Below, piece after piece: positions 234-12,875 of a DNA stretch of 21,894 nt. This DNA is from a virus. Below the pieces are notes generated by a model. It was not told the origin of the DNA. It ran no database searches and saw only the letters and a program-made list of their open reading frames with translations. The position numbers were made by a program, and so were the translations under genes. The DNA lies in the IMG/VR virus record IMGVR_UViG_3300043420_001340, positions 1 to 21,894 of that record. One strand, written 5' to 3'. Position 1 is the first letter of the stretch. Every line of letters begins with the position of its first letter.

Positions 234-836
234 ATGGAAGAGTTTATAAGCGTAAAAGATGAATGGTTTTCAATTCATGAAAACGATCTTTGGGTTTATA
301 ACAAGTTATTCTTAAATCAACGTCTAAGGCATCTCTGCGGTCCTGCAGGGGTGCCTGTTCCATGTTCTGGGTATTATATCGTCCGACCAAGTATTAATTT
401 ACTTGGTATGGGGCGATTTTCTCGTATTGAGTGGATTGATAATGAAACTGAACACTTACATCCCGCTGAGTTTTGGTGTGAAATCTTTGAAGGAGATCAC
501 TTAAGTGTAGATTTTCACTACAAAAAGACAGAATTAGTGGTTATAGGGGAGAAAGATGAAGAAGATCCTCTATATAAGTGGAAAAAATGGACAAAAATAG
601 ATAAAAATGTGCAATTTCCTACTATATTAAATAGTTTAGTGGGTGATTATGAGTGGATAAATTGTGAATTTATCGGAAATCACCTTATTGAAGTTCATGT
701 AAGGCAAAATCCTAACTTTAGATATGGAAATACTGTTGCAATTCCCGTTTGGGGTGATGAGGAAGTAGAAGAATATAAAAATTTGCGCTATATTCATGAT
801 GAATCATACCTAAGAAAAGGTTTTTACATCAATTAA
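234..836 (+). CDS. ATP-grasp-like protein, function unknown
   Basis: A 200-aa soluble protein with no signal peptide or membrane segment. Its motif order resembles the nucleotide-binding half of ATP-grasp enzymes. NKLFL with a following GVPVP (residues 23-43) resembles the 'DK..l...G.pvP' opening. YYIVRPSINLLGMG (47-60) resembles the 'vvRPs...gG.G' nucleotide loop. CEIFEGDHLSVDF (82-94) resembles the 'vEefi.G.E.sVd' strand. NCEFIGNHLIEVHVRQNP (143-160) resembles the closing 'viEiNpRp', with E153, R157 and N159 as candidate metal or ligand residues. ATG 234 is the only ATG start possible, since TAA at 210-212 closes the frame upstream. The RBS is weak: GAGG at 213-216 is too distant. Fold assignment is inference from motif spacing; substrate and reaction are unknown. 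The pre-ATP-grasp domain is absent or reduced. I have a loose memory of similar proteins in cyanophage genomes but cannot confirm it here. Confidence 0.6.
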   Translation: MEEFISVKDEWFSIHENDLWVYNKLFLNQRLRHLCGPAGVPVPCSGYYIVRPSINLLGMGRFSRIEWIDNETEHLHPAEFWCEIFEGDHLSVDFHYKKTELVVIGEKDEEDPLYKWKKWTKIDKNVQFPTILNSLVGDYEWINCEFIGNHLIEVHVRQNPNFRYGNTVAIPVWGDEEVEEYKNLRYIHDESYLRKGFYIN

Positions 837-1175: not shown

Positions 1176-1580
1176 ATGCCACCAAGTCGCGTCAGTAAGG
1201 GGTTTAAAGATATTAGTTTATCTTTCCAATATAACCCCATTAACAACGATCTAATTGCAATTAAGAATGAAACTGCAATCGCACGTTCTGTGCGTAATAT
1301 TGCACAAATTGCTCTTGGCGAGAAGTTATTTGATAACCGCTTTGGTTCTCAATTGCCAAGATCTTTATTTGATAATTTAGATCAAGTTTCTGCAGACATG
1401 ATTGCATTTGACCTCGAAGCAACAATAAAAGAGTTCGAACCTAGAGTTGAATTGGTGAGTGTTTCTGCGTTTCCAAATTACGATGAAAATAATTTGAATG
1501 TTGTAATTGATTATAGAATTATTGGTCTTGGTGCAGGGACCAACCAACTTTCGTTCGCATTAACACCAACTAGAAGATAA
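1176..1580 (+). CDS. 25: Baseplate wedge subunit gp25 (T4 gp25-like)
   Basis: A 134-aa protein, close to the ~132 aa of T4 gp25. The GPW/gp25 family layout is visible: a SKGFKDISLSF N-terminus, the central segment NETAIARSVRNIAQIALGEK with FGSQLPRSLFD following (residues 31-66), and the hallmark EPRV at 88-91, followed by an NNLNVVIDYRI strand. In T4 gp25 sits in the inner wedge next to gp6 and gp53, contacting the sheath start site. An in-frame TAA at 1173-1175 fixes ATG 1176 as the start. No Shine-Dalgarno precedes it. Its stop TAA (1578-1580) shares its last base with the ATG of gp6 (TAATG), a classic coupled junction. Arginine is partly encoded by CGT/CGC here, which is rarer in the giant gene downstream. 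Confidence 0.95.
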   Translation: MPPSRVSKGFKDISLSFQYNPINNDLIAIKNETAIARSVRNIAQIALGEKLFDNRFGSQLPRSLFDNLDQVSADMIAFDLEATIKEFEPRVELVSVSAFPNYDENNLNVVIDYRIIGLGAGTNQLSFALTPTRR

Positions 1581-3544
1581 TGGCACTTGTAGACTTAACT
1601 AGCTTAAATTTTTCTGATATTAAGACTTCCATCAAGGCATATCTGAGGGCAAATTCAACCTTCACAGATTATGACTTTGAAGGATCAAACCTGTCTATAA
1701 TTTTAGATATTCTTGCATATAACACTTATATAACCTCATATAATGCCAATATGGTTGGCAATGAGGTCTTTATTGATAGTGCAACTCTTCGTGAGAATGT
1801 TGTTTCATTGGCAAGGAATGTTGGATTTGTTCCCAAGTCAAGAACAGCAGCAAAAGCAATAATCTCATTCATTGTAGATACAAGTACCTTTGTAAACCAA
1901 CCACTAACACTCACTCTGAAAAAGGGAACTGTTGCAGTAAGTCAGGAAACTTTTGGTAATCAAAACTACACCTTTATGATTCCAGAGGACATTACTGTTC
2001 CTGTAGTTGAGCAAATAGCACAATTTAACAATATTGAGATATATGAAGGATCATATGCTATCAGCACATTTACAGTAAATACTGAACTTGAAGATCAGAG
2101 ATTCCTTCTTGATAATGAAAATATTGATACTAAGACCATATCAGTTAGAGTTAGACCAACACAGGCAAGCTCTATTGTAACAAAGTATAATATGGTTGAT
2201 TCTTTGATTGATACTAAGTCAGATTCAAAGATATTCTTTATTCAAGAAGTAGCTGATCTGCGTTATGAACTTCTATTTGGAGATGGTATTTTTGGTCAAA
2301 AATTAGAAGATCAGAATTATATTGAAGTTTCCTATTGTATTACAAATGGCCAGGAAGGTAATGGAGTTACCAATCTAGAATTTTCTGGCAGAATATTTGA
2401 TAATGCAGATCGTATTATTACAGAAGGTGTTTCTGATATCTTTATTGAATCTGGATCTCAAGGCGGACAAGAGATTCAGTCTGTAAATTCAATCCGTAAG
2501 TATGCTCCAAAACTATATGCATCACAAAATCGTGCAGTTACAGCATCTGATTATGAAGCACTTATTCCCGTAATTTATCCAGAAGCAGAATATGTTACAG
2601 TATATGGTGGAGAAGATCTAACTCCTCCGCAGTTTGGAAGAGTTTATATTGTTATAAAACCATTTAATGGTCAGTTTATTTCAAATGCAGTAAAAACAAA
2701 TTTATTAACTACTTTAAAAAAATATGCTGTCTCTGGTGTAAAACTTGAAATAGTTGATCTGAAATATCTCTATATTGAAACTACTTCTAACGTTTACTAT
2801 AATCAAAATAAAGCACCATCTTCTCAATTTGTTAAAAGTATTATATCTACAAATATCAACCAATACTCAAGATCCAGAGAAATTAATCAGTATGGATCCA
2901 AGTTTAAGTACAGTAAATTCCTCAAAGTTGTTGATGATAGTCACGATTCAATTACTTCTAATATTACCACTGTTCAGATTAGAAGGAATCTAAAACCAGT
3001 AATAAATAGTCTTGCTGAGTATGAACTCTGTTATGGAAATGCTTTTTATGTGAGATATGACAAAGAAAAAAATTCTTTGTCAGAAACTGATATGAAAAAT
3101 CCAGCAATTAATTGTGATGGATATAACATCAAGTCTTCTGGTTTTTCAGTTGAAGGTATCTCAAGTACTGTATATTTGTCAGATTTTCCATCCATGGACG
3201 GGAAAACTGGAGAACTATTCTTCTTTAGACTTGATTCTGATGCTCAACCAGTTATTATGAGAAGAAATATTGGAACTGTTGATTATGAGAAGGGGGAAAT
3301 TTTATTAAAACCAATAAAAATTATTTCTACTTTGAAGAATTTTGGCGGTGAGTCAATCATTGAAATATCAGCAACTCCTTTATCAAATGATGTTATTGGA
3401 CTCCAAGATTTATTTGTTCAGTATGAGTTGTCCAGAAGCACCATAAACATGGTTCCAGATGTTATAACCTCTGGTTATGATTCATCTGCATTAAGTCATA
3501 AGTCAAGTTCAAGTTATGTTAATGGGTCTTTAGTAAGAAATTAA
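1580..3544 (+). CDS. 6: Baseplate wedge subunit gp6 (T4 gp6-like)
   Basis: A 654-aa protein, near the ~660 aa of T4 gp6. The N-terminal segment around residues 33-90 (FEGSNLSIILDILAYNTY, then FIDSATLRENVVSLARNVGF) is the conserved gp6 entry region. FGDGIFG at 233-239 followed by an IEVSY strand and GQEGNG is the core signature shared with baseplate-J-like proteins. YEALIPVIYPEAEYVTVYGG and FGRVYIVIKP (~325-365) continue that fold. Two gp6 copies per wedge form the inner baseplate ring in T4 and hold gp25, gp53 and gp7. Start ATG 1580 overlaps the gp25 stop by one base, and the stop TAA is followed one base later by the next ATG. No truncation or frameshift is seen. Confidence 0.93.
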   Translation: MALVDLTSLNFSDIKTSIKAYLRANSTFTDYDFEGSNLSIILDILAYNTYITSYNANMVGNEVFIDSATLRENVVSLARNVGFVPKSRTAAKAIISFIVDTSTFVNQPLTLTLKKGTVAVSQETFGNQNYTFMIPEDITVPVVEQIAQFNNIEIYEGSYAISTFTVNTELEDQRFLLDNENIDTKTISVRVRPTQASSIVTKYNMVDSLIDTKSDSKIFFIQEVADLRYELLFGDGIFGQKLEDQNYIEVSYCITNGQEGNGVTNLEFSGRIFDNADRIITEGVSDIFIESGSQGGQEIQSVNSIRKYAPKLYASQNRAVTASDYEALIPVIYPEAEYVTVYGGEDLTPPQFGRVYIVIKPFNGQFISNAVKTNLLTTLKKYAVSGVKLEIVDLKYLYIETTSNVYYNQNKAPSSQFVKSIISTNINQYSRSREINQYGSKFKYSKFLKVVDDSHDSITSNITTVQIRRNLKPVINSLAEYELCYGNAFYVRYDKEKNSLSETDMKNPAINCDGYNIKSSGFSVEGISSTVYLSDFPSMDGKTGELFFFRLDSDAQPVIMRRNIGTVDYEKGEILLKPIKIISTLKNFGGESIIEISATPLSNDVIGLQDLFVQYELSRSTINMVPDVITSGYDSSALSHKSSSSYVNGSLVRN

Positions 3545-3545
3545 T

Positions 3546-6500
3546 ATGAAAGAAAATAGAATTAAAACTAAGTACATTCTCGAAAATCATCTACCTAGTT
3601 TTGTTCGAGAAGAATACCCATTATTTGTTAATTTCCTTAAGCAATATTATGATTCTATGGAGTATCAGGGTGCTCCTAAGGATATAATAGAAAATATTGA
3701 CGAGTATACAAAGTTAGAAAGTCTGACAAACAAAATAAGTTCAACCTTATTAACTGAAGATGTTGAGCTTTATACTATAGACATTAAGGTTGAGTCTGTT
3801 AAGGGATTCCCTAAAGAGTCTGGTTTGATTCAGATTGGAGAAGAGATAATTTATTATAAAAACAAAAATTCCACTACTAATACATTTGAGGGGTGTGTTA
3901 GAGGGTTTACTGGTAGAGTATTAAATGATAGTGGAAGAGATAATGAATTAATTTTTAGTGCTTCATTTGCATCTTCACACTCAAAAGATGCTGTTGTTAA
4001 AAATTTAGGAGTTCAGTTTCTAAAAATCTTTTTAGAAAAAACTAAAAAACTTCTACTTCCTGGACTGGACAATAGAGAACTCGCTCCAGATCTAGATCAG
4101 AATCTTTTTATAAAGCAAGCAAGAGACTTTTATTCAACAAAAGGAACTCCAGAATCATTTAATATTCTTTTTAAGGCGTTATTTGGTGTTGAAGCATCAA
4201 TTACAACACCATATGATTATGTAATTCAACCATCAAATGCTGATTATAGACTGGATACAGTAATCACTGTTGAAGTCATACAGGGAGATCCCTCAAAAAT
4301 TTTAAATAAGACTCTTTATCAAGATCAATACGGAACAATAAACAAAGCGTATGGTACTATTAACAATGTATTGAAGATATTAGAAGATAATAGAGAATAT
4401 TATACTTTATCTGTTGATAATAGTTTAACTTTTGATGAAAATAGTATATTTGGAAATTTTACTGTACATCCCGCAACATTTTTAATCACCTCCGCTGATA
4501 TTGGGGATGATACATTAGATGTTGATTCAACAATTGGTTTTCCAGAGAGTGGAACTTTATTTGTAAAGTTTGCGGATAATGTAAATGTGTTAGTTGATTA
4601 TACTTCAAAATCAACTACTCAGTTTTTTGGATGTTCTAATATTACAAGACGTTTAGATTCAGAGACAAGATTATCTTTAAACACATATGCATATGTATAT
4701 GGTGACAATGAAGACGATCTAATTACTGTTAGAATAACTGGAATTTTATCTGATTTTGTATATTCTGATGATGTTAAATTGATGTCCAAAGATGATACTA
4801 TTGAGATTTCATCTCTTGGGTATTCTGATGCAAATGATTTTAGATCTAATGATTGGATATTCAATCAATCAATATCTCACAAAGTCCAGGAACTTAAGAA
4901 TTTGGGAGGATTTAACTATGAATTATTCACCTATAATCCAATCAATATAGTAACTGGCGACACTGTTTCTGTTAATTGTATTATCAGAGATTCTTTTGGT
5001 AATCTTGAAAATGTTACAAGAGTTTTTGATGCTACTACTGGATCTAATCCTAGAAAATCATTAAAAATTACAAATGATGTAGAAATTGTATACGTATATA
5101 CTGTAACAAGAAGTCTTAGAAAAGCTCCTGGACTTAATTATAATTCAGATGTTCAGAACACATATGTAGATTCGGGAAAAAATACTTATATAACAACACC
5201 TTCAATTTCAAGATACTATAATGAAAGCTTTGAGTTGAGAGGTAGAATAGCTAATTTTGATGCAAATTTAAATAACGAAGAAACAATTCCCGTTTTTAAT
5301 CATGGATTTTTAACTGGCGATGCAATTGTATATTTTCCTGTAGATGAAAATAATACTTTAGATATTCCTAAAGCGATTTATTTTGTCAAAAAAGTAGATA
5401 ATGATCGTATTAAAATCTCGAAAAGTAGATCGGATCTTTTTAAAAGTGATTTTATAAAAATTACTGGAATTGCAACCAATAATACATTTGCTCCACTTGA
5501 TTTTACACAAGTTAGTTCTGTAGAGAATGAAGGACTTGTAGTAAGAGAAATACAATCACAAAACTTAATTAGAAAATTAGAAGATCCTCAATTAACAGAA
5601 AAAACTTATAATACACTGCCTGGAAAGATTGGAATTCTACGCAATGGTGTAGAAATTTTAAATTATAAATCCATAGATTGGATTAGATATGGACCTCTTA
5701 CTGAGATTAGAGTTTCTGCTCCTGGTCAAGATTATGATGTTATTAATCCCCCTTTAGTAAATATTGCAGATATACAACACTCTTCTGAAGTTGGATTTGG
5801 TGCTACAGCATTTGCTAGAGTTACTGGTTCTTTAAGTAGAGTTGACGTTATAAATCCAGGATTTGACTATACTAGCACACCATTTTTGGCAATTTCTGGA
5901 GGAAATGGCACTGGAGCACTAGTTAAAGCAAATTTAGTTGCTTATAGACATAGAGTTGAATTCAATGCTATCGCACAAGCACAGAGAGTAAACCTGGCAG
6001 ATAATATTATTACATTTTCCGAGTATCACAGATTCAGAAATGGTGAGAGAGTAATTTATAATACTCAAGGTGGAGTATCTATTGGCGGATTAGTAAATAA
6101 TGCTTCATATTATGTTTCTATAATCGGATCAAGACAAGTAAAACTTCATAGATCATATGAAGATGCCATGGCAGCTTCTTTGACATATAATCCTGAAGTT
6201 GGAATTGTTACTGGAGCATATAATGAAATTCAGTTTACTTCTTTTGGAAGTGGAAACCATATCTTAGAATCATATGAAAGAAGAAAGAGAATTGGCGGCA
6301 CAAGAGTTATCAATCCAGGAAAAAATTATTCAAATAGGAAAACAATATTTGATGTAGATAACGTTAATTTGTATTCAAATACTATTAGTATTTTTAAACA
6401 TGGATATGAATCTGGAGAAATTATTTGGTATGAATCTGATCAACCAGTTGGTGGATTATCCTCATCAACTTTGTATTATGTCACGAAAATTGATCAAAAT

Positions 6501-9500
6501 ACTATACGTTTATCCGAAATTGCAAGTGATGATCTTGGCAAGTCTTATAATTATGACAATCAAATTTATATAGATTTTACTTCTACTGGAAATGGTTCAT
6601 TCAATTACGAACCAATAAAACTATCCATATCTGGAAATATTGGAATTTCCTCCCATTATTTTACTGGTGTCAATACTAGCGCAACATTTAATAGCGATAT
6701 TCCTAGTTTTATTGGAATTGACACTTCAAATATCAAAGTAGGTCATATTGTAAATGAATTATCTGGATTCATATCTTCTGATGTTAAAGTAACATCGATT
6801 GGAATAGGAAGTATTGGTATTAGTACTTCTCACTTATTCTCTTCTGGAATTACAACCACTACTTTATCTTTCAGCGAATTTATAGATTTTGAAGCTAAGA
6901 TTATTCCAGTATTCAGAGGAGAAATTCATTCTCTTGTTGTAGAAAAAGAAGGAAATGAATATGGATCTCCAGATATATTAAATTATGATAGACAACCTCT
7001 TGTTTTATTAACAGAAGGGGTTGATGCTCGAGCAATTCCAATTGTAAGTGAAGGTATTATAAAAAATGTTTTAGTTCAGAATAGCGGAAGATATTACAAA
7101 GCACAACCAAATATTGAAGTAATTGGATCTGGAGTTGGAGCTCAACTAAGTGCCGTAATTGATGAACAAGGAAGATTGTCAGAAATTGTAGTAATAACTG
7201 GCGGTTATGGTTATGATCCAGTATCTACTAGAATAGTAATTTCAACTCCAGGTGTTGGTGCGAAATTTGATTCTGTGATTAAAACTTGGAATGTAAACTT
7301 ATTCAGTAGACTATTGAATAGTGGACAAATATCCAATGATGGTGGTGTTCTTGTAAAGGGTAATAATGGATTACAATATACGAATATATACGCTCCAAAT
7401 AACCTTAGAAGAGATTTATATTCTTCACGGGTTATTGGTGGCAATCTTGAGGTTTATCGTTCAGACTTATCAAATGATACCTCCAGAATTAAAGTACATT
7501 CTCCAATAATTGGATGGGCATATGATGGAAATCCAATTTATGGACCATATGGATATGGAAATCCAAGTATTGGTGGTGGAATAGTACAAATGAAGAGTGG
7601 TTATACTCTAACAAGATTGGCCAATAGACCACCAGATTTCCCACTAGGATTTTTTGTAGAAGATTATAAATTTACAGGAACGGGCACTTTAGATGAAAGT
7701 AATGGAAGATATTGTAAGACTCCAGAATTTCCCAATGGAACTTACGCATATTTTATGACTCTTTCTACAAATATTGCAGATGCTGGAATTTTTAATGGCA
7801 CAAAGTTTCCAGTATTTCCATATTTGGTAGGAAATAAATTTAGATCTTTGCCGATTGAGTTTAATTACAATCCACGTTCAAATCAAAAAGATTTTGATTT
7901 TGCTAGTTCTGGTTTAATTAGAAATACATATCTCTATAGTTTAAATTCTAATAATTCCGAATATCCATATTTCGTAAGTTCTTATAAAATTAGAAAGCAG
8001 TTGTCCGATGTCAAAGCAACATCAGTTGGAACTGTTGATGGCGTGGATATTGTCTCTGGTGGACAAAATTATCAAGTTGGCGATCAAATCATATTTAATG
8101 ATAGCAAATCACTTGGCGGATTTGGTGCTTATGCAACGGTCTCGAAAGTTTCTGGAAAGGAAATTGAAAAAATAACATCAGAGACTACTATTTTAGAGGA
8201 TGTTGAAATAATTAAATTAACAGATTCTCCAAATCAGTATCTTTTTATTTCCGATACTCCTCATGATTTCTCCAGTGATGAAGTAATATCAATATCAGGA
8301 ATAAACACAAATGCAGTAAGCTTCAAATCTTCATATAAAATTACAATCTTATCAAATACTTTACAACTAAAAGTTGGTCTTAATACTATAGCATCTACTG
8401 GAATAGTAACTGCATTTGAAGTTTCTGGAAGATTTGATGAACCAAATCTACTAATAAATGATTATTATCAAATTGGAGATGAAGTTGTAAAAATTATTGG
8501 AGTGGATCCTTTAAACTCCAAAATCACTGTTTTGCGTGGACAAAATGGACGAGATGGAAATCATTTAGTAAATACTTTCTTAGTAGAAAAGTCTAGAAAA
8601 TTTAAAATATCTGAAGAGTTTAAAAATTATCCATTTAATAGGTCTAAAGAACGATACTTTAATCCACAGTCAACTCTTGGAATAGGTACTGTTGGAATAA
8701 CATCAACGTTATTCTTGAACTTGATTTCACCTGGAGTAACAGCTTCTGTAGGAATTGGCACTACAACATTACTATATTTTGAAAATATTGATGAAATTAG
8801 AGGATTTAGAAATGGTGGTTATGTAAGTATTGCATCTACTTTAATTGATCTAGTTTCTGATAGAAAGAAAATTATTTCAGTTGGGGGAACCTCAATAACA
8901 ATTGACTTTGACACATCCTCAGTAAGTTACAGTGGAGAACTTTGCACAGTATCAAAGTGGAATTTTGTATCTTTAAATTCCCAATCCATGTACTTGCCTC
9001 AACATGGATATAGAACAGGACAAAAGATCAAATATAGTCCAAATGTTGGTACTGGAATTACTGTATCTGAGGATGGTATTTCAGAATACGCTCTAGATTA
9101 TGATCAGGAACTTTATGTTGCAAGATTTAATGATGATGTTATTGGACTTTCTACTTCTATTATTGGAATTGGTTCAACTGGTGGTTTTACTGGAATAGGA
9201 ACTACTTCTATTAATCTATTATATTTTGTTGGATTTGGTACTGGAATTTATCACAGTTTTACGAATATTCCAAACGATATTGTAAAAGTTGATATTAATC
9301 AATATTTGAATACTGTATATACTGCAGAAGATCATGAGATAAACATAGGAGATACAGTAGATGTTTCTTGTATTCCCGACGTTTCTTCAGAATATGATAT
9401 TGTTTATGATGATACCAATAGAATTTTAGTAACCAAAAGAAAAAACTTTAGTGCTATTGATATCAATATTGAAAACAATACTGTTACTATTGAAAATCAT

Positions 9501-12500
9501 GGATATTATAACGGCGAAAAGATTCTTCATACTTCATCATCTCCAGCAGGTGGACTTGAAAATAATAAGATATATTATGTAAATGTTTTAGATTCTGATA
9601 GAATTCGTTTATCATCCTCTTTCTTAAGAAGAGAAGATAGTTTGGTTAAAATTACAAGCCAATCTTTTGGAACTATTTCATCAATAAATCCAAAAATTGA
9701 TTTAGTAAGAGGTAAAATTTTAACATTTAATCTATCAGATCCATCATTGTCATATGCAAAGGGATTTGGAAGAGCATCTGCATTTACTTTTAATATTTTC
9801 TCAGATAAAACATTTAATACAAGATTTGTATCGTCCCCCAAAACTGCTAATTTTGAAGTTGTTAAATATGGAGAAATTGGAGTATCTACAGATGCAAAAG
9901 TTACAATAAGAGCAACGGAAAATCTTCCCACTAAGTTGTATTATAAATTGACTCCTGTTGGAGATATTGCTTTACCATTAACAAAACAACAAATAGTTGT
10001 AAGTGATGATTCAAATCCAGAGCACAGTACAATATTAAAAGTAAATAGTGCATTCTCTGGGACACAATCTATTGTTGGTGTATCTTCAACATCATTCTCA
10101 TACACAACTGCAGTAAGACCAGAATCTGATTTATATGTTAAGAATGATGGGATAATTAATTATTCCACAACATCTTTGACTGCACATGGTCCAATTTCAA
10201 AATTAAAACTAGAGTCTAAAGGTCAAAGATACAAGCGTCTTCCATATATTGACACAATAAAAACAAAATTAGGAAAAGATGCAATTCTATTCCCAACTTC
10301 AGATACTATCGGAAAGGTTTTAACTATAAGACTAAATGGAGAATCTGGTTATGATTATCCATCAGATATTACATTAAAACCTCAAGCAAAATTCCCACAA
10401 ATTATTAAAGTAGATCCATTAGCATCATTCTTAAGTATTGATGTTGTCAGTGAGGGAGTTAACTATTCAACTGCTCCTAGCGTAGTCGTTAAAGACGGAT
10501 TTACAAATAAAGTGATACGAGATCTCACTCTCTCATATCAAACTGGTTCACTTAAGGTTGATATTATCCGAAATACAACAGGAATTTATGATGTAACCCC
10601 AACATTTATTCCAATTAATAATAGCAACGGTATTAGAATACTATCAATTTCTTATAATAGAGAAGCAAATGAAGCAACCTTAACTTTAGAACCCGATTAT
10701 AGTAGTATAGATGACTTTCCGTTTGGAGTTGGAACAAGATTTCTACTAGAAAATATAACAACTATAGATGAAGTTGGATATGTAAACAGAGGATATAGTA
10801 GCTCTGGATTTGAGTACAATTTGTTTACAGTAAAATCTGCTGATCCAAATATTGGCGGAGCAAATGCTACGATTGTTTTTAGTTTAGACGGTTTTATAAT
10901 TCCATCTGGAGAAACTCCAGGAATATATTCTTCCGAGAATAGTTTAGCGAGAATTATTCCCGAATCATATTTCCCAGTTTTTGACGCAAAATTACAAAGA
11001 AACAATTTTTATATTGGGGAAAACGTAAATAGACTCACTGAAGAAAGTAGTATTGAACTTTTGGAGAGAATAAAAAGATCAAATCCAAACGCACCTGAAG
11101 ATCTGTTGACTCAAATAGTACAAAGAAATAATCTAAGTATTAGAACAATATTTGAAGATCCAGTGTCTGGTCAGGTAGAAGACTGGGATCTTCAAAATCA
11201 ATACATTAAAGTTTCTTCTGATGACTTTTTTCAAATAGGTGATATTATAAAAGGATCTTCTTCAAATTCTCAGGCTGTTGTTACAAATGTATTAAATTAT
11301 GTTGGCAATTACAAAATTGACTCTTCTTCGTTAATTGAGAGAGGATGGAATAGAAAAACAGGATTCCTGAATGATTCTCTCCAAAGAATTCATGATAATG
11401 ATTATTATCAAGCTTTGTCTTATGCGGTAAAGTCAAATGTTTCCATTGAGAAATGGGATGACGCGGTTTCTACTTTAACTCATCCATCTGGATTTAAAAA
11501 ATTCAGTGATTTGTCAGTTGAAACTAATGCAAACTCTGGTATAAGTTCCGATCAAGATTTTGGTGATTTTTCATCCCAAGTAATATTAACCGAGATTATT
11601 GATACTCAGTCAATATATGATTTTGATTTGGCAACAGAGGAAGCATTTAATATTGATGGAAAAAATATTTCTGAAGTTATCAATCTAAATTCTGCAATTA
11701 TACAAGATTATGCAAAGTCTGTTGGCAATAAAGTTCTTCTTGTTGATAACATATCTGATGAATTTAATAGTCAACCTAGATTTGAAAAATACAGTATTGT
11801 TAATAAATTTAGAATATCTGATCTCAAATCTAGAAAATATGTGATGGCAGTAAGAGATAAGCGTTTTACTGCACAGAAAGAAATATTATTAATTACACTT
11901 TTCCAAACATCAAATGAAATTTATTTAAATCAGTATGGAAGAATTGATACTTTTGGTGATCTTGGGTATTTTGATGCTCAAATTTTTGGAGAAGAAGTGT
12001 CTCTATTATTCTATCCAAATAAATTTGAATTTAATGACTATGAAACTTCATTTATTTCATTTGATATTGCATCAACAGAAGAGTCTGGAACTCTTTCTTT
12101 AGGAGATTCTATAGATATAGTCAATAATTATTCTACTATTTCTGCTGGTGTTGGTCAAACAACAGTATTTTCAATGCCCACTAGTAATAGAGCATCAAAA
12201 ATTATTATTGGATATAGAAAATCTGGAAAATATGAATTTGATGAAATTTCAGTAGTTCATGATGGTTCTAATGTACAACTTCTTGAGTATGGTCAACTAA
12301 GTAATGAATTATCAGCATCTGCATTTGCTGGTGTTGGATTTGGAACATATTATCCTTACATTAGTGGTTCTAATGTTAATATTGATTTAATTCTAAATGA
12401 CACTAGTGAGGAAATTCTTGTAGACTACATTTCAATAAATGCTGCAAGTTCTCCTACTGGAGTTGGTTCAACTGCAATTAATACTGGAACTGTTCAATCC

Positions 12501-12875
12501 TTTAATACGAGTATTGGATCTTCAACATCCCCAACTGCAAATATTGTTGCTCAGTACTATAACTACCCATCAGGAATTAGTTCTGAGGGAGTTGGAGCCT
12601 ACTTGTTTGCGTGCGTATCAGATACTACAAATTCTAGATATGAAGTATCTGAACTATGCATTTCCAGTGAAGATTTATACTCTTCTATCTCTGAATTTGC
12701 AATACTACAATCAAATTCTGGAGAAAGATTAGGAGTATTTGATTCGGAATCGGATGGTACAAACACCTATATTAAGTTCACTCCTGCTGAAAATATTGAT
12801 GTTGATGTTACAATATTCCAGACATCTGTGAGGATTCCCACAACATTCTATGATGTAACTAGTATAGATATTTAA
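3546..12875 (+). CDS. 7: Giant gp7-like baseplate wedge protein with YHYH domain and repeated beta modules
   Basis: A 3109-aa protein between gp6 and gp8, the place of gene 7 in T4. Residues 15-42 (HLPSFVREEYPLFVNFLKQYY) and DFYSTKGTPESFNILFKALF (194-213) resemble T4 gp7 as I recall it (DFYSTKGIEASYKFLFKVLY). Near the C-terminus, DNDYYQALSYAVKSNVSIEKW and THPSGF (2618-2650) resemble gp7's SYYVMKIKSN..W and HPVGF. In T4 these lie about 100 residues apart; here ~2,450. Between them are HG.x3.G.x5-Y...GGL...YYV modules (starting near 586, 826, 951, 1820, 1985; a weak one at 1573), 'PGxxY/GGxGY' modules (e.g. 726, 771, 924, 1180, 1219, 1505, 2303), 'GFPxSG...RGxxG' modules (87, 331, ~1664) and a YHYH domain at ~1315-1425. 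The ~650 N-terminal residues of T4 gp7 have no counterpart. In T4 gp7 links the inner wedge to gp8 and gp10. ATG 3546 follows the gp6 stop by one base; no clear Shine-Dalgarno. The frame is certain, gp7 identity is good inference, and module functions are unknown. Confidence 0.8.
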   Translation: MKENRIKTKYILENHLPSFVREEYPLFVNFLKQYYDSMEYQGAPKDIIENIDEYTKLESLTNKISSTLLTEDVELYTIDIKVESVKGFPKESGLIQIGEEIIYYKNKNSTTNTFEGCVRGFTGRVLNDSGRDNELIFSASFASSHSKDAVVKNLGVQFLKIFLEKTKKLLLPGLDNRELAPDLDQNLFIKQARDFYSTKGTPESFNILFKALFGVEASITTPYDYVIQPSNADYRLDTVITVEVIQGDPSKILNKTLYQDQYGTINKAYGTINNVLKILEDNREYYTLSVDNSLTFDENSIFGNFTVHPATFLITSADIGDDTLDVDSTIGFPESGTLFVKFADNVNVLVDYTSKSTTQFFGCSNITRRLDSETRLSLNTYAYVYGDNEDDLITVRITGILSDFVYSDDVKLMSKDDTIEISSLGYSDANDFRSNDWIFNQSISHKVQELKNLGGFNYELFTYNPINIVTGDTVSVNCIIRDSFGNLENVTRVFDATTGSNPRKSLKITNDVEIVYVYTVTRSLRKAPGLNYNSDVQNTYVDSGKNTYITTPSISRYYNESFELRGRIANFDANLNNEETIPVFNHGFLTGDAIVYFPVDENNTLDIPKAIYFVKKVDNDRIKISKSRSDLFKSDFIKITGIATNNTFAPLDFTQVSSVENEGLVVREIQSQNLIRKLEDPQLTEKTYNTLPGKIGILRNGVEILNYKSIDWIRYGPLTEIRVSAPGQDYDVINPPLVNIADIQHSSEVGFGATAFARVTGSLSRVDVINPGFDYTSTPFLAISGGNGTGALVKANLVAYRHRVEFNAIAQAQRVNLADNIITFSEYHRFRNGERVIYNTQGGVSIGGLVNNASYYVSIIGSRQVKLHRSYEDAMAASLTYNPEVGIVTGAYNEIQFTSFGSGNHILESYERRKRIGGTRVINPGKNYSNRKTIFDVDNVNLYSNTISIFKHGYESGEIIWYESDQPVGGLSSSTLYYVTKIDQNTIRLSEIASDDLGKSYNYDNQIYIDFTSTGNGSFNYEPIKLSISGNIGISSHYFTGVNTSATFNSDIPSFIGIDTSNIKVGHIVNELSGFISSDVKVTSIGIGSIGISTSHLFSSGITTTTLSFSEFIDFEAKIIPVFRGEIHSLVVEKEGNEYGSPDILNYDRQPLVLLTEGVDARAIPIVSEGIIKNVLVQNSGRYYKAQPNIEVIGSGVGAQLSAVIDEQGRLSEIVVITGGYGYDPVSTRIVISTPGVGAKFDSVIKTWNVNLFSRLLNSGQISNDGGVLVKGNNGLQYTNIYAPNNLRRDLYSSRVIGGNLEVYRSDLSNDTSRIKVHSPIIGWAYDGNPIYGPYGYGNPSIGGGIVQMKSGYTLTRLANRPPDFPLGFFVEDYKFTGTGTLDESNGRYCKTPEFPNGTYAYFMTLSTNIADAGIFNGTKFPVFPYLVGNKFRSLPIEFNYNPRSNQKDFDFASSGLIRNTYLYSLNSNNSEYPYFVSSYKIRKQLSDVKATSVGTVDGVDIVSGGQNYQVGDQIIFNDSKSLGGFGAYATVSKVSGKEIEKITSETTILEDVEIIKLTDSPNQYLFISDTPHDFSSDEVISISGINTNAVSFKSSYKITILSNTLQLKVGLNTIASTGIVTAFEVSGRFDEPNLLINDYYQIGDEVVKIIGVDPLNSKITVLRGQNGRDGNHLVNTFLVEKSRKFKISEEFKNYPFNRSKERYFNPQSTLGIGTVGITSTLFLNLISPGVTASVGIGTTTLLYFENIDEIRGFRNGGYVSIASTLIDLVSDRKKIISVGGTSITIDFDTSSVSYSGELCTVSKWNFVSLNSQSMYLPQHGYRTGQKIKYSPNVGTGITVSEDGISEYALDYDQELYVARFNDDVIGLSTSIIGIGSTGGFTGIGTTSINLLYFVGFGTGIYHSFTNIPNDIVKVDINQYLNTVYTAEDHEINIGDTVDVSCIPDVSSEYDIVYDDTNRILVTKRKNFSAIDINIENNTVTIENHGYYNGEKILHTSSSPAGGLENNKIYYVNVLDSDRIRLSSSFLRREDSLVKITSQSFGTISSINPKIDLVRGKILTFNLSDPSLSYAKGFGRASAFTFNIFSDKTFNTRFVSSPKTANFEVVKYGEIGVSTDAKVTIRATENLPTKLYYKLTPVGDIALPLTKQQIVVSDDSNPEHSTILKVNSAFSGTQSIVGVSSTSFSYTTAVRPESDLYVKNDGIINYSTTSLTAHGPISKLKLESKGQRYKRLPYIDTIKTKLGKDAILFPTSDTIGKVLTIRLNGESGYDYPSDITLKPQAKFPQIIKVDPLASFLSIDVVSEGVNYSTAPSVVVKDGFTNKVIRDLTLSYQTGSLKVDIIRNTTGIYDVTPTFIPINNSNGIRILSISYNREANEATLTLEPDYSSIDDFPFGVGTRFLLENITTIDEVGYVNRGYSSSGFEYNLFTVKSADPNIGGANATIVFSLDGFIIPSGETPGIYSSENSLARIIPESYFPVFDAKLQRNNFYIGENVNRLTEESSIELLERIKRSNPNAPEDLLTQIVQRNNLSIRTIFEDPVSGQVEDWDLQNQYIKVSSDDFFQIGDIIKGSSSNSQAVVTNVLNYVGNYKIDSSSLIERGWNRKTGFLNDSLQRIHDNDYYQALSYAVKSNVSIEKWDDAVSTLTHPSGFKKFSDLSVETNANSGISSDQDFGDFSSQVILTEIIDTQSIYDFDLATEEAFNIDGKNISEVINLNSAIIQDYAKSVGNKVLLVDNISDEFNSQPRFEKYSIVNKFRISDLKSRKYVMAVRDKRFTAQKEILLITLFQTSNEIYLNQYGRIDTFGDLGYFDAQIFGEEVSLLFYPNKFEFNDYETSFISFDIASTEESGTLSLGDSIDIVNNYSTISAGVGQTTVFSMPTSNRASKIIIGYRKSGKYEFDEISVVHDGSNVQLLEYGQLSNELSASAFAGVGFGTYYPYISGSNVNIDLILNDTSEEILVDYISINAASSPTGVGSTAINTGTVQSFNTSIGSSTSPTANIVAQYYNYPSGISSEGVGAYLFACVSDTTNSRYEVSELCISSEDLYSSISEFAILQSNSGERLGVFDSESDGTNTYIKFTPAENIDVDVTIFQTSVRIPTTFYDVTSIDI
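5298..9630 (+). repeat. Dispersed repeats of an 'HG-x-x-x-G ... GGL ... YYV ... I-R-L' module (protein level)
   Basis: About 45-residue units recur within the giant gene: NHGFLTGDAIVYF (from residue ~585), YHRFRNGERVIYN..GGL..ASYYV (~827), KHGYESGEIIWYE..GGL..TLYYV (~951), QHGYRTGQKIKY (~1819, diverged tail) and NHGYYNGEKIL..GGL..KIYYV (~1984). PHDFSSDEVISI (~1572) is a weaker copy. A related NHNFVSGEEVEYD is at residue ~56 of the next gene. Units end in a strand of the pattern D.x.I.R/K.L/I.S. They are diverged in sequence and separated by other modules, so they are old duplications rather than a recent tandem array. The boundaries are approximate. Confidence 0.6.
7488..7820 (+). other. YHYH domain within the giant gp7-like protein
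   Basis: Residues ~1315-1425 carry SPIIGWAYDGNPIYGPYGYG, then LDESNGRYCKTPEFPNGTYA with a closing YF. This matches the YHYH family pattern of DG.PIYGPYGY, LDE.NGR, TPE(F/Y)P.GTY.YF. The final 'YHYF' appears as YAYF, so the histidine that names the family is replaced by alanine at 1401. YHYH domains occur in marine bacteria and in large proteins of T4-like marine phages; their biochemical role is not established to my knowledge. Confidence 0.8.

Follow-up and report, generated by a model that had tools for sequence, protein, structure and literature searches.

A very small cyanophage protein of predicted ATP-grasp fold, encoded in an exchangeable slot beside the baseplate genes

The gene at positions 234 to 836 of a 21,894-base viral record, the whole of which is referred to here as the window, encodes a 200-aa protein whose fold, as judged from predicted structures, is almost certainly that of the ATP-grasp enzymes. 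We consider it moderately probable that the protein is an early, exchangeable accessory ligase of minimal size whose target is a protein or metabolite of the host. This assignment provides a fold and a testable chemistry for a phage family left as one of unknown function in every database checked, and a predicted stand-alone ATP-grasp protein of such small size offers a handle on the minimum needs of the fold.

234 to 836, + strand: phrog_3577 gene, 200 aa, predicted minimal ATP-grasp-fold protein without a pre-ATP-grasp domain (ORF; phrog_3577 profile; AlphaFold2 and Foldseek)

The open reading frame is intact and starts with ATG; the strand opposite contains many stops and is closed. The profile of phrog_3577, a family annotated as "unknown function", matches residues 7–199 of the protein, i.e. 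its full length (E 6.9e-54), and is matched by all 30 members of the alignment described below. Fifty GenBank records were retrieved by tblastn, all of them from Synechococcus phages and labelled 'hypothetical protein', with identities of 75% in S-T4, 57% in S-SRM01, 44–46% in ACG-2014f and 25% in BUCT-ZZ01. Among IMG/VR sequences, 326 relatives were confirmed with one query and at least 563 were found with another, and the median dN/dS among relatives is 0.21. The phrog_3577 match, the hundreds of relatives and this ratio identify 234 to 836 as a genuine gene under purifying selection, not a chance ORF. The family is restricted to cyanophages, viruses of Synechococcus; no bacterial homologue was present in the GTDB contigs searched, and 292 genomes of the cyanobacterial phylum gave a single chance-level match of 41 positions. 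In S-SRM01, a frame change near the glycine-rich loop splits the gene (locus L083, 7994–8593), for which a shorter ORF is annotated; the gene may have decayed naturally, or the break may be a sequencing error. Unbroken copies are present in other phages, and the idea that the family is decaying is disfavoured by the purifying selection seen elsewhere.

Searches with the protein sequence gave no match in Pfam or NCBIfam and no relevant match in the PDB (phmmer, hmmsearch). Two members of the family were modelled with AlphaFold2: model 1, the window protein, built from 45 family sequences, has a pLDDT of 89.5 and a pTM of 0.86, and model 2, a 45% identical member from locus L169, has a pLDDT of 90.1 and a pTM of 0.86, with all five models reaching at least 85. 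When compared with the PDB by Foldseek, each of the two models returned ATP-grasp enzymes in 50 of 50 listed matches, in agreement with the initial annotation, which had read the motif order as that of the ATP-binding part of an ATP-grasp ligase. The top match of model 1 is 3df7, a putative ATP-grasp protein of Archaeoglobus fulgidus (E 1.0e-5; TM 0.56 by query; identity 12%), which at 301 aa has extra parts that the 200-aa phage protein lacks. PylC (4ffl) was matched with E-values of 1.8e-5 by model 1 and 1.1e-6 by model 2, and the other listed matches include the L-amino-acid ligase 3vot, PsnB, Ddl, ArgX, GAR synthetase and biotin carboxylase. TM-scores of the top matches are moderate (0.49–0.57 by query length) because the phage protein is without whole subdomains. 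Indeed, while both models contain the two-subdomain ATP-grasp fold, the N-lobe consists of strands and at most one short helix, the protein begins about 20 residues before K24 with helices only there, and the Rossmann-like pre-ATP-grasp domain at the N-terminus is absent from both.

A Foldseek comparison with the viral library (BFVD) placed the family's own member first, followed, among the named matches, for the most part by ATP-grasp proteins from giant viruses and from phages. Short viral ATP-grasp proteins of 230–250 aa in this library (Catovirus A0A1V0S972 and uncultured Caudovirales A0A6J7WWD7) have the same fold but share at most 13% identity with the window protein and lie outside phrog_3577 as far as tested. 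Profile comparison by hhalign, in which MurB and FtsQ served as negatives and column shuffles as controls, gave scores within the column-shuffle range for R2K, Ddl, RimK, ATP-grasp_3 (PF02655) and ATP-grasp_4 (PF13535). The alignment with the PF02655 set fell in the expected register over residues 21–174 but was not significant, and neither the window record nor hmmscan gave a PF02655 match above the Pfam cut-off. Since profile comparison is not significant alone, the fold claim rests on predicted structure together with motif conservation. The same lack of a significant sequence-profile match would be expected if the motif resemblance were coincidental and the protein not an ATP-grasp protein at all, a reading rendered highly improbable by the unanimity of the Foldseek PDB matches for two models and by the agreement of the viral library. 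Phrog_3577 is a new, very small family within the known ATP-grasp superfamily.

The reading frame and the motifs quoted in the initial annotation were found where it had placed them: NKL at residues 23–25, GVPVP at 39–43, VRPS at 50–53, GMG at 58–60, EIFEGDHLSVD at 83–93 and IEVHVRQNP at 152–160. The corresponding features of the gene are as follows.

303 to 305, + strand: K24, in the N-terminal helix (WVYNKL), conserved in 30/30; putative equivalent of the first ATP-binding lysine, from motif order
384 to 419, + strand: R51-P52 and glycine-rich loop (VRPSINLLGMGRF), with R51 at the VxKP lysine position in the alignment
480 to 512, + strand: ExFxGxHxSVD (E83, G87, H89, D93), equivalent to the ATP-grasp 'ExxxGxxxSVD' strand-loop (alignment; hhalign in register, not significant)
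660 to 710, + strand: INCEF...IEVHxRxN (N143, E145, E153, H155, R157, N159), predicted Mg/ATP-phosphate site (alignment)

Conservation was counted in a 30-member phrog_3577 alignment with identities down to 28%. The five residues singled out beforehand as a check on the assignment are retained in 27 to 30 of the members: R51 in 27 (K in 3), E83 in 29, D93 in all 30, E153 in 28 (D in 2) and N159 in all 30. Five columns drawn at random would all be this conserved with P = 0.0018, and with P = 0.0003 when only polar columns are drawn. K24, G58, H89, N143, E145 and R157 are invariant (30/30), G60 is kept in 26, and position 155 is occupied by H in 27 and by Q in 3. The lysine that replaces R51 at the VxKP position occurs in ACG-2014f and locus L157, the ACG-2014f members displaying a canonical ILKP. 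On the basis of superfamily motif order, we take K24 to be the lysine before the N-lobe and R51 to mark the VxKP position; the carboxylates that bind the metal would be E145 and E153, and the position of the ExN asparagine is presumably taken by H155 (Q in 3). The predicted metal site accordingly reads ExH or ExQ where ExN is usual, and N159, which was rightly named as a conserved residue, is therefore not the canonical asparagine, a role that falls to the position of H155. Other polar residues occasionally replace the ExN asparagine in ATP-grasp proteins (PMC4431377).

The conserved metal carboxylates, K24 and R157 suggest that the protein is likely to be an active enzyme. A dead ATP-grasp fold, retained as a nucleotide- or protein-binding regulator of the host, would be compatible with the very small size of the protein, the N-lobe helices mostly missing from the models, the change of the ExN asparagine to H or Q and, in 27 of 30 members, an R where a lysine is usual. 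This explanation is unlikely, however, as E145 (30/30), E153 (E or D in 30/30), K24 and R157 are kept to the most distant member, as catalysis expects.

Among known enzymes, PylC (4ffl/4ffr), the amide-bond-forming ATP-grasp ligase of pyrrolysine biosynthesis, is the best fold match of model 2 and the second-best of model 1, and has the same motif order. It differs in its size of ~350 aa, which includes a pre-ATP-grasp domain, shares 14% identity with the phage protein, and no operon or pathway common to the two was seen. The L-amino-acid ligase 3vot of Bacillus licheniformis and the PF13535 and PF02655 families present ExxxGxxxSVD and E...ExNxR in the same order as the phage protein, but carry ExN in place of ExH/Q, and the phage protein is without their N-terminal domain. 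The graspetide ligase PsnB and Ddl were matched by both models and ArgX by model 1; these are ATP-dependent carboxylate-amine or ester ligases of ~300 aa, mostly with lower TM-scores, and no PsnB-type precursor peptide was recognised beside the phage gene. From these nearest folds, we put the formation of an amide or peptide bond by the phage protein at slightly better than an even chance. In such a reaction, the phosphates of ATP would be gripped by K24, R51 and the GMG loop and the nucleoside by E83 with its strand, and E145, E153 and H155 would coordinate Mg2+, with R157 and N159 facing the acyl-phosphate. A carboxylate phosphorylated by ATP would then be attacked by an amine to give an amide or peptide bond, the chemistry known from PylC, the L-amino-acid ligases and Ddl. 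As a second small substrate would have no pre-ATP-grasp domain to bind it, the protein would likely act with a macromolecule as partner, or with a small metabolite that another subunit holds.

Short ATP-grasp proteins of jumbo phages have been proposed to modify host proteins; they belong to the R2K clade (CDC123, R2K.2, R2K.3; PMC4431377, PMC7824862), which is defined by a pair of lysines conserved in the RAGNYA domain (PMC4431377). In phrog_3577, K24 is invariant but precedes the RAGNYA domain, the strand carries R51 in 27 of 30 members, and no second lysine is conserved there. The ExR of R2K is likewise absent, the strand being HxSVD with D93 in 30/30 and no arginine. Membership of the R2K clade was rejected on these motifs, the missing second lysine and ExR, together with the lack of a match to R2K Pfam families.

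Downstream of the gene, the window contains the following features, in the order in which they occur.

844 to 890, + strand: conserved RNA-like element, an H-type pseudoknot candidate with a second hairpin by the ribosome-binding site of the ORF at 897; slot boundary
897 to 1145, + strand: 82-aa ORF; phages that lack the ATP-grasp gene have related small ORFs at this place as well
1149 to 1156, + strand: GATAAATA, T4-type late promoter motif of gp25, between the ATP-grasp gene and the baseplate operon
1176 to 1580, + strand: gp25, baseplate wedge subunit, start of the late block (PF04965, phrog_261)
1580 to 3544, + strand: gp6, baseplate wedge subunit (phrog_219)

Further baseplate genes follow gp6. 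Within this block, a 3109-aa ORF (3546–12875) is the probable counterpart of the very long virion/baseplate proteins annotated there in S-T4, S-SRM01 and ACG-2014f.

The location beside gp25 and gp6 was correctly noted in the initial annotation, which suggested from it that the enzyme might modify a virion protein. Proximity to gp25 does persist among relatives: the ATP-grasp gene precedes gp25 in 174 of the 177 loci with enough sequence, the exceptions being BUCT-ZZ01 and L169/L170, in which the gene lies away from gp25. Promoter motifs separate the two genes. In 99 of 128 distinct loci, counted over the whole interval, the late promoter motif NATAAATA, described for the cyanophage S-PM2 (PMC2984593), occurs between the ATP-grasp gene and gp25, mostly 27–30 bases upstream of gp25 (the window copy is at 1149); in a separate promoter count, it lies ahead of gp25 in 89 of 109. 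Upstream of the ATP-grasp gene, the late motif was found in 1 of 122 loci, and a sigma-70-type promoter of the gene's own (10/12) in 1 of 115. A conserved glycosyltransferase-like gene ~300–500 bases upstream heads the cluster, and here a sigma-70-type promoter (at least 10/12) is present in 80 of 88 loci, as opposed to 3% of shuffles. In locus L001, this gene (443–1210; WIDNDI, DxD-like; assigned by eye) has a strong sigma-70-type promoter at the head of the cluster, and 91 of 96 loci have a relative of it upstream. An operon of the ATP-grasp gene with gp25 was rejected on the basis of these promoters, and their motifs suggest that the gene is quite likely expressed early in infection.

The region between a gene for a 50-aa basic protein (432 cyanophage records) on one side and the RNA-like element with its small ORF on the other is an exchangeable cargo slot of T4-like cyanophages. 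Among 72 contigs that carry the element, the gene upstream of it belongs to phrog_3577 in 8 and to two other unknown families in 30 and 19, and in most other T4-like cyanophages the slot holds unrelated genes or none. Variants seen at loci L307–L424 and L425–L427 comprise two other families, purM, other single genes, or nothing; several contigs have an empty slot, the flanks being 40–75 nt apart. Proximity to gp25 is thus an address, not an operon: the gene lies next to tail genes because both border the swappable slot. Although the gp25 adjacency in 174 of 177 relatives favours a ligase that modifies a baseplate or tail protein, the late promoter and small ORF that intervene, the early-type promoter at the head of the gene's cluster, the relatives that keep gp25 and gp6 in place with unrelated genes or nothing in the slot, and the phages that carry the gene elsewhere (BUCT-ZZ01, L169/L170) all argue against it. 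We regard that ligase as very unlikely, and a target anywhere in the virion as equally so. Gene adjacency can mislead, and here promoters and slot comparison point to an early accessory programme in place of the virion programme.

In S-BM3 the slot contains purM, and in S-SRM01 speD lies between the ATP-grasp gene and gp25. Both would suit an auxiliary metabolic gene whose product, an ATP-grasp-type enzyme of other chemistry, carries out phosphotransfer or carboxylation-like activation of a metabolite, and HxSVD and INCEF...ExHxR appear closer to the carboxylase/ATP-grasp_4 side than to the ExR peptide-ligase side. Such chemistry is rather improbable, as the nearest folds are those of amino-acid and peptide ligases and the conserved neighbours include no recognisable enzyme partner; indeed, no specific partner gene was found, since the conserved neighbours that were examined are present in phages lacking the ATP-grasp gene as well. 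In the model we favour, an early accessory ligase, the gene would be one of several alternatives between the glycosyltransferase-like/basic-protein pair and the gp25 late block, and the virion would therefore be a less likely target than a protein or metabolite of the host. The initial annotation had likewise raised host-protein modification, which is possible. A narrower version, in which a single-domain ExH ligase of the early cyanophage programme, without the usual domain for holding a substrate, attaches an amino acid or peptide to a Synechococcus protein and represents one swappable option of a host-takeover slot, is speculative and, in our estimation, improbable.

The slot boundary itself is a near-invariant element, CGGGATAGNAACCCCGTAAAAAGTTCTG, located upstream of the small ORF before gp25 and present in 119 of 306 loci and in at least 118 IMG/VR contigs. 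Within 844 to 890, the possible pseudoknot pairs are CGGG with CCCG and AG-N-AAC with GUUCU, joined by an A-rich linker, and the hairpin that follows lies beside or around the ribosome-binding site. No match to the element was found in Rfam. The only variable pair covaries (CG 13, AU 9, UA 1, UG 1), and the fold of the window element has z = -2.7. The element is a candidate translation-control RNA, whose arrangement may resemble that of preQ1-I riboswitches and of the leader of T4 gene 32. An antisense tRNA-Thr remnant behind the ATP-grasp gene was considered and rejected, as the intact tRNA of L170 is unrelated in sequence and Rfam returned nothing. In many relatives (L016, L033, L035, L044, L056, L069, L074 and others), the reading frame extends into the element and adds a C-terminal tail, e.g. 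RDSNPVKSSD or GIATP, and the same tail is gained by unrelated cargo genes in the slot.
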